DNA of 64,000 nt, taken from assembly GCF_003725415.1 (NCBI RefSeq), contig NZ_RJQC01000002.1, positions 240,580 through 304,579 of the forward strand, written 5' to 3'. Shown here in pieces: positions 35,476 through 42,172 of the stretch. How positions within the stretch are numbered: the first letter of the stretch is position 1; each line of letters starts with the position of its first letter. Made by a program: the position numbers and the translations under genes. Under the pieces are notes generated by a model. It searched no databases and was not told where the DNA came from. It saw only the letters and a program-made list of their open reading frames with translations. This DNA is from Absicoccus porci (GTDB lineage Bacteria; Bacillota_I; Bacilli_A; Erysipelotrichales; Erysipelotrichaceae).

Positions 35476-35862
35476 ATGAGATATTATCCATTGAATCACT
35501 TATTCGATGACTTCTTCACCGATGAGCCATCCAGACTAATGAAGACCGATATTCATGAAAAAGATGGTATGTATGAATTGAATATGGCAATTCCCGGTGT
35601 CAAAAAAGAGGATATTCAAATCGAATTGAGCGATGGCTATTTGAAAGTAACCGCAACGCGTAAGACCAATCGTGATGATTCAAATAGTCGTTATGTTCAT
35701 AAAGAACGGTATGAAGGTACTTGTTCAAGAAACTTCTATATTGGTGATGGATATCATCAAGAAGATATCAAAGCTTCTTTCGATAATGGTGAATTAAAGA
35801 TTACCTTGCCAAAGGAAGTAAAAGAGCCAGAAGCAAAAAGCAAAATGATCACAATTGAGTAA
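35476..35862 (+). CDS. Small heat-shock protein Hsp20, copy 1
   Basis: A 128-residue alpha-crystallin-domain chaperone that holds unfolding proteins. The N-terminal arm is YPLNHLFDDFFTDEPSRLMKTDI. The domain starts ELNMAIPGVKKEDIQIELSDG (about residues 32-52) and ends ASFDNGELKITLPKE. The C-terminal I-x-I anchor appears as MITIE. It follows an AGGAGG site and the double CIRCE-like region. Two close paralogues follow at 13- and 15-base gaps, so all three form one transcript. Confidence 0.93.
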   Translation: MRYYPLNHLFDDFFTDEPSRLMKTDIHEKDGMYELNMAIPGVKKEDIQIELSDGYLKVTATRKTNRDDSNSRYVHKERYEGTCSRNFYIGDGYHQEDIKASFDNGELKITLPKEVKEPEAKSKMITIE

Positions 35863-35875
35863 GGAGGTATAAATT

Positions 35876-36280
35876 ATGGCATATTATCCAGGATTTGGAC
35901 GTGTATTTGATGATTTCTTTAATGGTGGTTTTTCAAGTCAAACCGGTGTATTAAAAACCGATATTGTTGAAAAAGATGGTAACTATGTATTATCCATGGA
36001 AGTACCTGGTTACAAAAAAGAAGATATTCAAATTGAATTGACCGAGGGTTATTTGAAAGTAACTGCTACAAAACATAGCAACACGGATGAGAAAGATGAT
36101 AATGGTCGGATCATTCGTAAAGAGCGTTATTCAGGAACGCAATCAAGAAGTTTCTATGTAGGTGATAACTATCATCAAGAAGATATCAAAGCTTCCTTTG
36201 ATAATGGTGAATTAACGATTACTTTACCAACGGAAGCAAAGAAGATCGAAGCAACGAAACAGTATATCTCTATTGAATAA
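35876..36280 (+). CDS. Small heat-shock protein Hsp20, copy 2
   Basis: 134 residues, same architecture as copy 1: short N-terminal arm with FGRVFDDFFNGGF, domain start VLSMEVPGYKKEDIQIELTEG, IRKERYSGTQSRSFYVGDNY loop, and the C-terminal YISIE. Copies 1 and 2 share YHQEDIKASFDNGEL exactly, pointing to a recent tandem duplication. AAGGAGG precedes the ATG. It probably forms mixed oligomers with its neighbours, an inference from co-expression. Confidence 0.93.
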   Translation: MAYYPGFGRVFDDFFNGGFSSQTGVLKTDIVEKDGNYVLSMEVPGYKKEDIQIELTEGYLKVTATKHSNTDEKDDNGRIIRKERYSGTQSRSFYVGDNYHQEDIKASFDNGELTITLPTEAKKIEATKQYISIE

Positions 36281-36295
36281 TAGGAAGGTGATATT

Positions 36296-36697
36296 ATGAT
36301 GTACTATCCAACATTTGATCGTTTATTTGATGATTTCTTTGATACCCAATGGACCGGCTCAAACGATGTCATGAAGACAGATATCGTTGAAAAGGACGGC
36401 AACATCCAATTCAATATGGAAGTGCCTGGTGTAAACAAAGACGATATCCAAATTGAATTGAATGATGGAGTATTAAATATCACAGCTAGTCGTGATCAAA
36501 ATCACGAAGATAAAGATGATAATGATCAGCTCATTCGTCAGGAACGCAATTATGGACGTTATACACGTAGCTTCTATGTAGGCGACAATGTAAAACCAGA
36601 AGATGTTAAGGCCCACTTCGAAAATGGTGAACTACAAATCACAGTTCCTGATAAACAAGATGCCATTGAAAATCATGAAACCATTTCTATCGAATAG
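36296..36697 (+). CDS. Small heat-shock protein Hsp20, copy 3
   Basis: 133 residues, third paralogue: FDRLFDDFFDTQWTG arm, FNMEVPGVNKDDIQIELNDGVL domain start, HFENGELQITVPDK end and TISIE tail. It is the most diverged of the three; it keeps the DDNxxxIRxER and RSFYVGDN blocks of copy 2 but replaces YHQEDIKASFDN by VKPEDVKAHFEN. The charged DDxNDQLIRQER loop is in the dimer-forming region. It ends the heat-shock unit, with a terminator starting seven bases after the stop. Confidence 0.93.
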   Translation: MMYYPTFDRLFDDFFDTQWTGSNDVMKTDIVEKDGNIQFNMEVPGVNKDDIQIELNDGVLNITASRDQNHEDKDDNDQLIRQERNYGRYTRSFYVGDNVKPEDVKAHFENGELQITVPDKQDAIENHETISIE

Positions 36698-37141: not shown

Positions 37142-37321
37142 CGTATTCCTTCTATCTATATTCATACTGTAAGGGTTATTTTCTTTTTTCAAAACATATT
37201 GTGTTATTTATTAATCATATTATTCCTATAGTTTATATATATATCATTTGACAACAGCACTCTCTCCATTTATCATAGTAATCACATAAGATATATAAGT
37301 TTTAAGAAAGAGGTGGTCTTG

Positions 37322-37369
37322 ATGTGTTGTCGCAACATGAATAAACGAATGTGTTGGTTTAAACAATAA
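37322..37369 (+). CDS. Cys-rich leader peptide candidate (15 aa)
   Basis: ATG at 37322, preceded by AAGAGGTGG five bases away, encodes MCCRNMNKRMCWFKQ and stops at 37367-37369, 40 bases before the transporter ATG. Three of 15 residues are Cys and three are Met. The leader RNA can fold: TGTTG-TCG-CAACA inside the ORF, and AGGTGGT (37311-37317, the ribosome site) pairs with ACCACTT (37369-37375) after the stop. I see no U-tailed terminator between ORF and transporter, so any control would be translational. Expression is not shown. Confidence 0.5.
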   Translation: MCCRNMNKRMCWFKQ

Positions 37370-37409
37370 CCACTTATGTATTTATATTTTTTAGGAGGAG
37401 AGAAACATT

Positions 37410-38765
37410 ATGAATATAGATATTTTAGAATTAGCCGCTTTAGGCCTTGTCCTTGTATTTTATGCGATTATTTGGTACTTACGAAAGAAAAAAGATTGGA
37501 GCTTCACCAAAGCAACCTTCCTTGCCGTTGGTCTTGGCGTGATTGTTGGTCTTGCCTTTAAGAATAAATATACTTACTATTCTGCTTTCGGAACGATCTA
37601 TACACGATTGATCAGTGCCATCGTTGTTCCATTACTATTCTTTAGTATTATTTCCAGCATCACCAACCTTACCGAAAAAATTAATTTAAAAAAGATTGGT
37701 TTAAAATCCGTTGGTTTCTTACTATTGAATACATTGATTGCGAGTACATTCGCTTTATTGTTTAGTGTTTTCTTCCATATTGGCAAAGGATTCCAATATC
37801 AACTAGCTACAGACTATAAAGCAGAAGAAGTTCCATCTTTTATTGATACGATCACAAATTTATTTCCATCCAATTTAGCCAGTCATTATGTGAATGGAGA
37901 AATCGTACCCATCGTGCTTTTTGCCATCTTTGTGGCTTTGGCTTACAACGCATTGATCAAATATGGCGAAACCGATATCAAGATCTTTAAACAATTTGTC
38001 GATGCAACCAATAAGATTTTAGGTACCGTCGTTAGTTATTTGATTGATTATACGCCATATGCTGTATTGGCATTGATTGGTCGTGCCATTAGTTCTCATA
38101 CATTATCTGATTTATTACCTTTGCTTAGTGTTCTTGTTATCGTTTATGTTTTATGTGCAATTCAGATTTTCTTAGTCGAAGGATCTTTATTGACAGCGAT
38201 TGGCAAATTGAATCCAATTGCCTTCTTTAAAGGCATTTTCCCAGCTGGTTTGGTTGCTTTTACATCCCAAAGTTCGGTTGGTACCATTCCTGTCACGACA
38301 GATTCCTTAAAGAAATTAGGTGTACAAGAAGATATTGCATCGTTTGTTGCTAGTTTAGGTGCCAATCTTGGTATGCCAGGATGCGCCGGTATTTGGCCTG
38401 TTGTATCTGCTATCTTTGCTATCAATCTATTAGGAATTCATTACAGCGTTGGTCAATACATCTTCTTAATTGTCTTAACGTTAGTTGTAGCCATTGGTAC
38501 TGTTGGTGTACCAGGAACAGCCACCATTACCGCAACAGCTGTATTTATTGCTGCTGGATTACCGGTTGAAGTTATCGTCTTATTAACACCAATTTCCAGT
38601 ATTGCCGATATGGCTCGTACCGCAACCAATGTGGTTGGTGCCGCAACAGCAACCGTCTTAGTTGCAAAAACGGAAAACGAATTAGATTTAGTCGCATACA
38701 ATCAGAAAAATCCAGAAGATAAACAAGATTCTGAATCCGTTGATCTAGAACATGCGAATGCATAA
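37410..38765 (+). CDS. tcyP: TcyP-like cation symporter, probably L-cystine uptake
   Basis: A 451-residue membrane protein of the dicarboxylate/amino-acid:cation symporter family. There are about eight helices and two hairpins: LISAIVVPLLFFSIISSITNL near 69-89; FTSQSSVGTIPVTTDSLKKLGV near 286, the serine-rich re-entrant loop and substrate region; GANLGMPGCAGIWPVVSAIFAIN near 317; and PGTATITATAVFIAAGLPVEVI near 366. The N-terminal extra helix with a basic YLRKKKDWSF and the overall pattern resemble TcyP/YhcL cystine carriers more than glutamate or C4-dicarboxylate carriers. The specificity is an inference, supported by the Cys-rich upstream ORF. AGGAGG precedes the ATG. Confidence 0.78.
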   Translation: MNIDILELAALGLVLVFYAIIWYLRKKKDWSFTKATFLAVGLGVIVGLAFKNKYTYYSAFGTIYTRLISAIVVPLLFFSIISSITNLTEKINLKKIGLKSVGFLLLNTLIASTFALLFSVFFHIGKGFQYQLATDYKAEEVPSFIDTITNLFPSNLASHYVNGEIVPIVLFAIFVALAYNALIKYGETDIKIFKQFVDATNKILGTVVSYLIDYTPYAVLALIGRAISSHTLSDLLPLLSVLVIVYVLCAIQIFLVEGSLLTAIGKLNPIAFFKGIFPAGLVAFTSQSSVGTIPVTTDSLKKLGVQEDIASFVASLGANLGMPGCAGIWPVVSAIFAINLLGIHYSVGQYIFLIVLTLVVAIGTVGVPGTATITATAVFIAAGLPVEVIVLLTPISSIADMARTATNVVGAATATVLVAKTENELDLVAYNQKNPEDKQDSESVDLEHANA

Positions 38766-38773
38766 CATTAAGG

Positions 38774-38808
38774 GAGAACTATTTTAGCGATAGTTCTCTT
38801 TTTTTTAT
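38774..38808 (+). terminator. Terminator of tcyP-like gene
   Basis: GAGAACTAT (38774-38782) pairs with ATAGTTCTC (38790-38798), then a run of T. The same stem sequence recurs at 42197-42220. Confidence 0.9.
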
Positions 38809-38974: not shown

Positions 38975-41900
38975 ATGTATATGAAAACTTTAGCTTTAAA
39001 AAAGAGTTTAGCTATGGGATTTGTAGCTACAGGTATGACCGCATTGGCTAGTACAACAATTCATGCAGAAGATATTCAACCGGCAACAAATGCTATGGAT
39101 ACTACGACAACTACTGCAGAAACTTCGAATTCGACAGAAGTTCAAAAAACAACAAGTGAGAAATTAACGGATGCTCAATCGGAATTAAATCAAATGAAAG
39201 AAAACGAATCATCTGCACAAAAAGATTACAACAACAAACAAACTACTGCTAACGAAATTAAAGCTTCCATTGACTCAACCATCACAACCGAAGAGTCAAA
39301 AGAGCAAGCAGCGATTGATGAAAGCCAAAAGGGATTGGATGAAAATACGCAAAAATTGAATGATCTTCAAAAACAAAAAGATGAACTAACCCAAAAGCAA
39401 CAAGATCTATCAAAGGCACAAGATACGTATCAAAAAGCATTGGATACAGCAAAATCTAATGCAGGAAATATCACAGAAGACGATTACAATACGGCTAAGA
39501 AAAATGCAGATGCTGCTCAAGACGCATACAATACGGCCAAAGCAGATTTAGATGCTAAACAAGCTGAAAAAGATAAACAAACGGCTGATTATAACCAAGC
39601 TGTATTGGATGAAGCTTCTGCAAAAACTCAATTAGATGAGCTAACATCTAAACAAAGTGAATTAGAGAAGAATTTGGCCGATGCACAAGCTGCTCAAAAA
39701 GAAGCTCAAGATGCATATGATCTGATCACAACTGGAGAACAAGGAGAAAAATATAAAGAAGCCGTTCAATCTTTAGAAGATGCAAAAAGTGCATTGGAAG
39801 AAGCCAATCAAAAGGTACAAGATGCAATTGCTGCTCGTGATATCGTCAATGCACAAATTGCCACACTGAATCAGACTTTAGCTCAAGCTCAATCAGAATT
39901 GGCATCGATCACTGCTCAACAAGATTCCTTGGATAAGGCTGTATCAGATGCTCAATCTAACTTGGATGCTGCTCAAGTTACTTTAACAGAAAAACAAAAA
40001 GCAGTTACGGATGCAGAGAACAAATATAATGCCTATAAAAATAATCATAAGGACGCATATGAAGCCTTGGATCAAGCGGAAACAAAATTGTCAGAGGCTA
40101 CGAATGCCTATAATAAGGCCAAAGCAGATTATGATGCTGCATTGAAAGCATATGATCCGGAATTGAAGACAAAAGCAGATGAAGCTAATACGGAGTATGA
40201 TAAAGGACTAGCTGGATTCTACACATGGTTACAAGAAAAGACAGGTGTAGATTTGACAACTGCCATTAAAAATACAAATCTTAATGGATATACAGATTCT
40301 TCAAAAGAAGCAGATGCCACTACATTAAAACATGTGAAAGATGCTATCTCGTATATTAAATACTTCAATGAAAGACGTAAAGAATTGGGATTGAATGAAT
40401 TAATGATTTCTCCGAATGCGATGGCTATCGCTGCTAATAATGTGAATGTTACAGCTGCTAAAAATCTATATGGTCATACCGGTAATTTCCCAATGGGAGG
40501 TTCTGATCAGATTTATTCCGTAGGTGAAAATATGATTCCTAGATGGTCAGAATTAGATGAACAAACTTCAACAAATCCTCAAAAAGCAGCATTTGACATG
40601 TGGTATGACCAAGAAAAAGCTAAATATGATGCCGGAGAAAGAAATTTTTCAACAGTTGGTCACTATTTAAATATTGTCAATCCTGACTGGAATGTCACTG
40701 GTTTCTCAGCTGTAGGCAGTGCTATCCAAAACTTTGGAACGGCATCAAAACCTGAAAACGACTTTACCGTAACGGATTTTGAGAATTATCTGGATGAATA
40801 TTGGAAGAGCATTGCACCAGAAAAATTTGCATACTATACAATGAATCGAGCTATGATAGCTTCTAAAAATGCATATAATAATTCCAAAGCCGAATATGAA
40901 TCCGCTAAAGCAGATATAAATTATTTACGAACATATGGTGGATGGGACAGTACAGAAGATAGTCAAGATTGGCCAGAAATATATAAATCCGGTGAGCAGC
41001 TGAGCAAAGCTATCGAAACATCCAAATCTGCTGTTAATGTAGCACAAAAAGCTGTCGATTCAGCTCAATCTGATCTTACAGCCAAAAAGCAAGTTGCTGA
41101 TCAAAACAAGCAAAAACAAACGGCAAAACAAAATGAGATCAATCAAATAAACACTGATATCACAAATGCCAAAGCTGATCTGGATGCCAAAACAAGTGCT
41201 GTTACTGCGACTGAAAATGCTCAAAAAGATGCAGAAAATACCGTATCAGAACGTCAAAAAGCTGTTGATTTATACGGAGCAACATTAAATACTGCTAAGA
41301 ACAATTTGGATAAAGCCAAAGACGCTACAGAAGATGCACAAAACAAAGCAAAGAGCAGTCAAGCCAAAGTTGATGAATCAACGAAAAAACATAATGATCT
41401 TTTAGAGAAAGTCAAAACTTTAAAAACATCTGTAGATGCGATCACTTTAGATACTAATAAAGCGCAAGCTACAGCAGATGCAGCTAAAACTGATGCCAAG
41501 AAGAAGTCTTCCATCGCTTCTGATTTACGTGCTAAATTGGATGCTGTGGCAAATGCACAAAAGGATCTGGATAAAACGTTATCTAACATCCAGACTACAA
41601 AAGATAGTTTAGCTGCAAATGAAAAAGAGCAAAGTACTACAAAAGATTTGATCAACAAGTATGAATCCGATTTTAACACCCATAAGACTCGTTTAGCGAA
41701 GATTCAAAAAGAAAAAGCAGATCTAGCTGCTATCACTGCGGATTCTGTGCTTCCATGGGAATCCGATCCATCTTATTCTTACAATGATGATATTATGGAT
41801 AGTCTCATGCCAACCATGACAGAATATCGGGATGCTTTAAGAACTGCTAAAAACGCAAAAGATAATTTGGATAAAGCGTATGCCGCACGTAAAGAAGCGC

Positions 41901-42172
41901 AAAGCAAATACGATGAAATCAAAGCGATTTTTGATCGAGAAGAAGCAAATAAACAGGCCATCAAAGAAACACAAGCTCGTGCTCGTATGAGTGCTATGGC
42001 AAATCCATATGCATCTACAAATGCTATATCAACTAGTTCAAAGGTAAAACCAAATCAATCATCCACTTCTACCAACACTGGTACTCATTTAGATTTATTC
42101 AGTGCTGAATTAGCAACCAGCTTAGCTGCTCTAGGCATGGTATTAGCTTCTAAGAAAAGAAGAAATATTTAA
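38975..42172 (+). CDS. Large coiled-coil surface protein with CAP/SCP domain (SEC10/PgrA-like)
   Basis: 1065 residues. A signal peptide covers about 1-32 (KKSLAMGFVATGMTALASTTIHAED). A long Gln/Ala/Asp/Lys-rich coiled coil runs about 50-425. A CAP/SCP-like domain lies at about 440-615: FNERRKELGLNELMISPNAM, YGHTGNFPMGG near 499, VGENM near 516, AAFDMWYDQEK near 538, VGHYLNIVNPDW near 558. A second coiled coil covers about 640-1000. The tail STNTGTHLDLFSAELATSL ends in a hydrophobic helix and KKRRNI, a wall-anchor layout with a degenerate LPxTG. The arrangement resembles SEC10/PgrA surface-exclusion proteins of streptococci and enterococci, some of which block plasmid entry; here a scaffold or adhesion role is as likely. 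It is a single-gene unit, and 38809-38974 holds only AT-rich promoter sequence. Confidence 0.82.
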   Translation: MYMKTLALKKSLAMGFVATGMTALASTTIHAEDIQPATNAMDTTTTTAETSNSTEVQKTTSEKLTDAQSELNQMKENESSAQKDYNNKQTTANEIKASIDSTITTEESKEQAAIDESQKGLDENTQKLNDLQKQKDELTQKQQDLSKAQDTYQKALDTAKSNAGNITEDDYNTAKKNADAAQDAYNTAKADLDAKQAEKDKQTADYNQAVLDEASAKTQLDELTSKQSELEKNLADAQAAQKEAQDAYDLITTGEQGEKYKEAVQSLEDAKSALEEANQKVQDAIAARDIVNAQIATLNQTLAQAQSELASITAQQDSLDKAVSDAQSNLDAAQVTLTEKQKAVTDAENKYNAYKNNHKDAYEALDQAETKLSEATNAYNKAKADYDAALKAYDPELKTKADEANTEYDKGLAGFYTWLQEKTGVDLTTAIKNTNLNGYTDSSKEADATTLKHVKDAISYIKYFNERRKELGLNELMISPNAMAIAANNVNVTAAKNLYGHTGNFPMGGSDQIYSVGENMIPRWSELDEQTSTNPQKAAFDMWYDQEKAKYDAGERNFSTVGHYLNIVNPDWNVTGFSAVGSAIQNFGTASKPENDFTVTDFENYLDEYWKSIAPEKFAYYTMNRAMIASKNAYNNSKAEYESAKADINYLRTYGGWDSTEDSQDWPEIYKSGEQLSKAIETSKSAVNVAQKAVDSAQSDLTAKKQVADQNKQKQTAKQNEINQINTDITNAKADLDAKTSAVTATENAQKDAENTVSERQKAVDLYGATLNTAKNNLDKAKDATEDAQNKAKSSQAKVDESTKKHNDLLEKVKTLKTSVDAITLDTNKAQATADAAKTDAKKKSSIASDLRAKLDAVANAQKDLDKTLSNIQTTKDSLAANEKEQSTTKDLINKYESDFNTHKTRLAKIQKEKADLAAITADSVLPWESDPSYSYNDDIMDSLMPTMTEYRDALRTAKNAKDNLDKAYAARKEAQSKYDEIKAIFDREEANKQAIKETQARARMSAMANPYASTNAISTSSKVKPNQSSTSTNTGTHLDLFSAELATSLAALGMVLASKKRRNI

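Follow-up and report, generated by a model that had tools for sequence, protein, structure and literature searches.

Ribosome pausing at the codons of the regulated amino acid selects the RNA fold in the trp, his and ilv leader peptides. Leader peptides with Cys codons precede the cys operons of Mycobacterium and Propionibacterium and the cbs gene of Bifidobacterium, and those of the Mycobacterium and Propionibacterium cys operons also lack terminators (PMC1262725). The mycobacterial polycysteine small ORFs of Canestrari et al. 2020 are reported to be cysteine-responsive attenuators in M. smegmatis, as cited in PMC13236596. In Rhodobacterales, the uORFC-8-2 motif located before cysS combines two tandem Cys codons with an intrinsic terminator (PMC8632094). 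Cys leaders are known as a kind; their placement before cystine transporters appears to be undescribed, given that the openly licensed literature yielded no account of a Cys leader located before tcyP or a cystine transporter, or in the Firmicutes considered here.

The window analyzed here is a stretch of 64,000 nucleotides from Absicoccus porci, a member of the Erysipelotrichales (contig NZ_RJQC01000002.1, positions 240,580 to 304,579), in which a Cys-rich mini-ORF directly precedes a gene for a TcyP-like transporter; the promoter, leader and transporter features described below are on the forward strand. From sequence comparison, we conclude, with a probability of about 0.8, that this mini-ORF is the cysteine-sensing leader peptide of the transporter gene. 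It resembles the actinobacterial cys leaders in being a short ORF with a Cys run directly before a gene with a known or, here, predicted role in cysteine supply, with no conserved terminator in between, but belongs to another phylum, and both the leaders and the genes differ (biosynthesis there, a predicted cystine transporter here). The mycobacterial small ORFs are leaderless, whereas the window mini-ORF has a strong Shine-Dalgarno sequence (SD); in addition, unlike the mycobacterial type, half of the Firmicutes leaders in the present set have intrinsic terminators. These terminator-bearing relatives share with uORFC-8-2 the combination of tandem Cys codons and a terminator, whereas the window leader has no terminator, and uORFC-8-2 belongs to Alphaproteobacteria and to a cysteinyl-tRNA synthetase gene. 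The likeness to the trp, his and ilv attenuators lies in the predicted selection between RNA folds by pausing at the sensed codons; the target, an uptake gene, and the codon, Cys, are different.

The gene at 37410-38765 encodes a 451 aa protein of the SDF family (PF00375; Pfam E-value 1.3e-98) that is 31% identical to TcyP of Escherichia coli and shares with it the motifs AFTS.SS...IP and GCAG, the latter being the TM7 signature that replaces NMDGT. Both motifs are missing in GltP and in the closest solved relative, the aspartate transporter 9bgz, which has NMDGT. In the phylogenetic tree, where some branches are long, the protein clusters with TcyP of E. coli and separately from the GltP, DctA and SstT proteins, and identity as GltP, DctA or SstT was rejected, being weaker than TcyP. 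None of the NCBIfam equivalog models matched the transporter at the cut-off. With the SDF fold, the placement in the TcyP clade and the GCAG signature all found, the label TcyP-like is fair, and cystine is the predicted substrate. Because a terminator-like hairpin followed by a T run, read from the sequence by eye, lies 3' of the gene (38774-38808), the transporter is probably transcribed alone. Three tandem genes for Hsp20-like proteins are located at 35476-36697, one of them confirmed by Pfam and the others identified by inspection, and the region at 38975-42172 encodes a large protein of surface type in which a CAP domain is flanked by long coiled-coil stretches.

The mini-ORF (37322-37369) consists of 15 codons, from an ATG at 37322 to a TAA at 37367-37369, and encodes the peptide MCCRNMNKRMCWFKQ. 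It is preceded by the SD GAGGTGG (37310-37316; a 6-nt match) and contains three Cys codons, namely the adjacent codons 2 and 3 (TGT TGT, 37325-37330), the presumed stall site, and codon 11 (37352-37354). A 40-nt spacer (37370-37409) separates the stop codon from the transporter ATG at 37410 and includes the transporter SD AGGAGG (37393-37398), about 24 nt downstream of the mini-ORF stop. As is typical of leader peptides, this is a short ORF with an SD of its own, close upstream of a gene. These coordinates and the SD agree with the initial annotation, which had reported a 15-codon ORF with a good ribosome site that stops 40 nt before the transporter ATG. The same annotation had proposed that AGGTGGT (37311-37317) pairs with ACCACTT (37369-37375). 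The complementarity is real, but its stability is not above that of shuffled sequence (z = -0.36), with 64 of 200 shuffles folding equally well or better. When the upstream 250 nt of the window itself were put through 10,000 dinucleotide shuffles, a mini-ORF containing CC and preceded by any SD appeared 74 times, and the combination of an ATG, an SD of at least 5 nt and a CC mini-ORF 12 times. Thus, the mini-ORF is unusual in its own right, and the helix is not. Elsewhere in the same genome, a second Cys leader was searched for and rejected: the other in-frame matches to the pattern that were examined overlap ordinary genes or lie within them, a CsoR-like gene being one example, or are on the opposite strand of a coding gene. 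The two other SDF paralogues of this genome have no Cys leader upstream.

A sigma-70-type promoter, TTGACA-17-TATCAT, identified by a consensus scan with 11 of 12 matches, lies just upstream, at 37248-37276, so that the mini-ORF should fall inside the transcript, the start of which is expected near 37283, about 40 nt ahead of the mini-ORF. Many of the homologous TcyP-like loci have, immediately downstream of the -10 box, a palindrome with the approximate consensus CATAnTAAACATATATGAATAG, matched at up to 20 of 21 positions in the homologues compared with a maximum of 14-17 in shuffles. The window copy, CATAGTAATCACATAAGATATA (37274-37295), is a weak match (14 of 21) that falls within the shuffle range and is not significant alone. 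The loci listed with this palindrome are the window, L085, L081, L079, L070, L069, L082, L075, L074 and L135. It is a possible repressor operator that might provide a second layer of control; its binder, we would guess, is a cysteine repressor of the Rrf2/CymR type. Three of these loci (L074, L081 and L135) still have the palindrome but no longer the mini-ORF, which, along with the presence of only three Cys codons in the window peptide, is what would be expected if the window mini-ORF were a decayed remnant or a chance ORF and control were exerted by the promoter-proximal operator only. We consider this highly unlikely because a strong SD, an ATG and adjacent Cys codons come together in only 12 of 10,000 shuffles.

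The leader reading is supported by recurrence among related Firmicutes of gut and soil. Homologues of the transporter were gathered from the order Erysipelotrichales and from genomes sampled at one per species, and the 250 nt upstream of each gene were searched under fixed criteria: an SD of at least 4 nt, at most 45 codons and adjacent Cys codons. An SD-preceded CC mini-ORF was detected at the homologous position in 31 of the 52 close homologues, which come from Erysipelotrichales, Lachnospiraceae and Sedimentibacter, among others, compared with 0.5 expected from dinucleotide shuffles; the homologues are not independent, and this count is to be read alongside the tree. The reverse strand of the same regions yielded no CC mini-ORFs, and CC (31) was the commonest homodipeptide in the mini-ORFs, the next being that of Leu (10). 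Among remote homologues, a CC mini-ORF was found in none of 38, and among control transporters of the same order (GltP-like or other SDF genes) in 1 of 26. Widening the search to 600 nt added L054, L062 and L134, with L053 and L059 as possible further cases. The initial annotation had named lack of conservation in relatives as one outcome that would count against it, and the idea survives this search; the enrichment of Cys codons is apparent at the level of the family, the window peptide itself having three.

Across lineages, the peptides are unrelated except for their Cys runs (CCSCCCCCCC, CCCC, MVCCHNRC), as exemplified by Herbinix (...YSMCCSCCCCCCC), Lachnoclostridium (...FMCCSCCCCCNS), Sedimentibacter (...KICCCCRYN), Thomasclavelia (...IGRCCCCFFNKE), UBA4808 (MRIRVLRMVCCHNRC) and Butyrivibrio (MLNFRNLKSEYMCCRMTEFRASYMAGML...). 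Some have a CC(R)xM core in common: MCCRNM in the window, MCCRMTEF in Butyrivibrio and ECCRMP in UBA5450. An NCBIfam scan of ten leader peptides matched no model. Variable peptides that keep their Cys runs are characteristic of amino-acid-sensing leaders, in which the codons, rather than the product, would matter. In close relatives, the Cys run is degenerate in L048 (RCYYYF) and L037 (ending in RCW) and absent upstream of the transporter in L003, L004 and L035. L048 and L037 have decayed leaders of the Thomasclavelia type, with RCCCC changed to RCYYYF in L048.

An intrinsic terminator separates the mini-ORF from the gene in half (15) of the 30 positive leaders that were examined; 14 of these were found by the detector and one (L036) by eye, and a weak, poorly tailed call in L002 was left out. 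In L041, L044, L045 and L046, the stem sequences differ, and the position and T run are kept. The 5' arm of the terminator has a potential pairing partner 3' of the Cys codons, inside the mini-ORF or a little further on. This antiterminator pairing is significant in L036 (p = 0.008), L038 (p = 0.010), L056 (p = 0.018), L057 (p = 0.042) and L060 (p = 0.006) and not individually significant in L041, L044, L045, L046 and L051; over nine representatives, the combined p is 2e-4. In L036, L051, L056, L057 and L060, the partner begins 6-14 nt past the CC codons, roughly at the point to which a ribosome stalled on them would extend. This is the textbook geometry of attenuation, in which stalling at Cys codons would allow transcription. 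The layout also bears on the view that the peptide itself is active, for instance as a small protein or as a Cys peptide that senses metals or redox state, with the codons not serving as a gauge. Cys-rich peptides can bind metals, but the peptides of different lineages have nothing in common beyond the Cys runs, their position directly before the transporter is kept and the terminator/antiterminator geometry is tied to the codons, which makes this view extremely improbable.

Under the leader reading, scarcity of charged tRNA-Cys would cause the ribosome to pause at the paired Cys codons 2-3, perhaps also at codon 11, and the paused ribosome would alter the folding or occupancy of the leader RNA such that more transporter is made; when cysteine is ample, the ribosome would finish quickly and expression would stay low. 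In the terminator-bearing relatives, the switch would act on transcription, through an antiterminator formed just after the Cys run. For the window species, we infer the dependence on Cys, its direction and a translational mode. Two scans detected no intrinsic terminator between the window mini-ORF and the gene, in agreement with the initial annotation, and a terminator in the window was accordingly rejected; Thomasclavelia and the Herbinix/Anaerocolumna/Sedimentibacter group are likewise terminatorless. Because there is no terminator, the switch in the window would most likely act on ribosome access to the transporter start. This elimination makes a translational mode reasonable, and our reading for the window is control at the level of translation that responds to Cys-tRNA, with about even odds for the mode.

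The absence of a terminator would be only apparent if the AGGUGGU/ACCACUU stem together with AUGUAUUUAUAUUUUUU formed a weak one, with the mini-ORF in its loop, so that the window would also work by transcription attenuation. The U-rich stretch after the stem and the terminators in half of the related leaders would fit this; however, apart from the two negative scans, the stem has only 7 bp and is no better than in shuffles, its loop is very long and the U run starts late, and we regard such a terminator as very unlikely. A comparison of the whole window with Rfam gave no family at its gathering score, and a T-box or another Rfam riboregulator was rejected for lack of a match.

How a stalled ribosome might affect the window's transporter start was addressed by modelling. 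A ribosome placed on the Cys codons lowers the energy needed to open the transporter start from 5.3 to 4.2 kcal/mol; this small relief of 1.1 kcal/mol has p = 0.11 against shuffled spacers, and the fold of the whole leader is at z = 0.05. Of the earlier proposal, the part that stands is control of the TcyP-like transporter by a Cys-codon leader, which the conservation in homologues and the terminator layout of relatives favor; the claim that stalling opens the transporter SD does not gain support from the modelled relief. The lack of a significant fold in the window leader would suit simple coupling, whereby ribosomes translating the mini-ORF keep the leader open or are handed over to the SD 24 nt downstream, without any alternative RNA structure, and pausing at Cys codons would alter the number of ribosomes near the transporter start. 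The short distance from the mini-ORF stop to the SD points the same way, as do the similarly short gaps (34-62 nt) in the terminatorless L069, L079, L082, L083 and L072. L002 and L032, however, have plausible sequestering helices, with a relief by the stalled ribosome of 2.5-2.8 kcal/mol (p = 0.05-0.11), and overall we consider coupling without an RNA switch unlikely.

Returning to a leader that acts through RNA structure, one terminatorless case is that of Thomasclavelia (L002), where the relief is 2.8 kcal/mol (p = 0.05). As read from the sequence, the last codons of its mini-ORF, AAUAAAGAG, repeat AUUAAAGAG, which lies next to the transporter SD, and both can pair with CUCUUUAUU, making these segments an attractive candidate for a sequestor and antisequestor pair. 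Release of a sequestered SD by a stalled ribosome was rejected as a general rule for terminatorless leaders, the relief being near shuffle levels in most of them. Direct pairing of the Cys run with the region before the transporter was likewise rejected as a general mechanism, with p <= 0.05 only in L032, L083 and L057.

A further lead comes from codon usage. In all eight loci of Lachnospiraceae and allied taxa (L067, L068, L069, L070, L071, L075, L079 and L134), the first Ser between Cys codons is encoded by UCC, even though the Cys codons vary. This codon creates (C/U)UCCU within the Cys run, complementary to SD sequences, either that of the mini-ORF or that of the transporter, and might act as an anti-SD. 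We tentatively propose, with the odds somewhat against it, that the family of Cys leaders before TcyP-type transporters repeatedly swapped its output stage, with terminators in some lineages and terminatorless control at the level of translation in others. Among the latter would be Lachnospiraceae whose Cys-Ser-Cys codons (UGC UCC UGU, with UCC kept) would form an anti-SD such that the sensing codons are themselves the lock.

If these predictions are correct, the range of Cys leader peptides, so far genes of biosynthesis and tRNA charging, would grow to include import. Close relatives in which the same sensor occurs, some with a terminator and others without, would offer a natural series for following how the output stage of an attenuator changes. 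Such ORFs are too short for the usual annotation, and with them many anaerobic Firmicutes, including common gut genera, gain a predicted cysteine gauge on cystine uptake.
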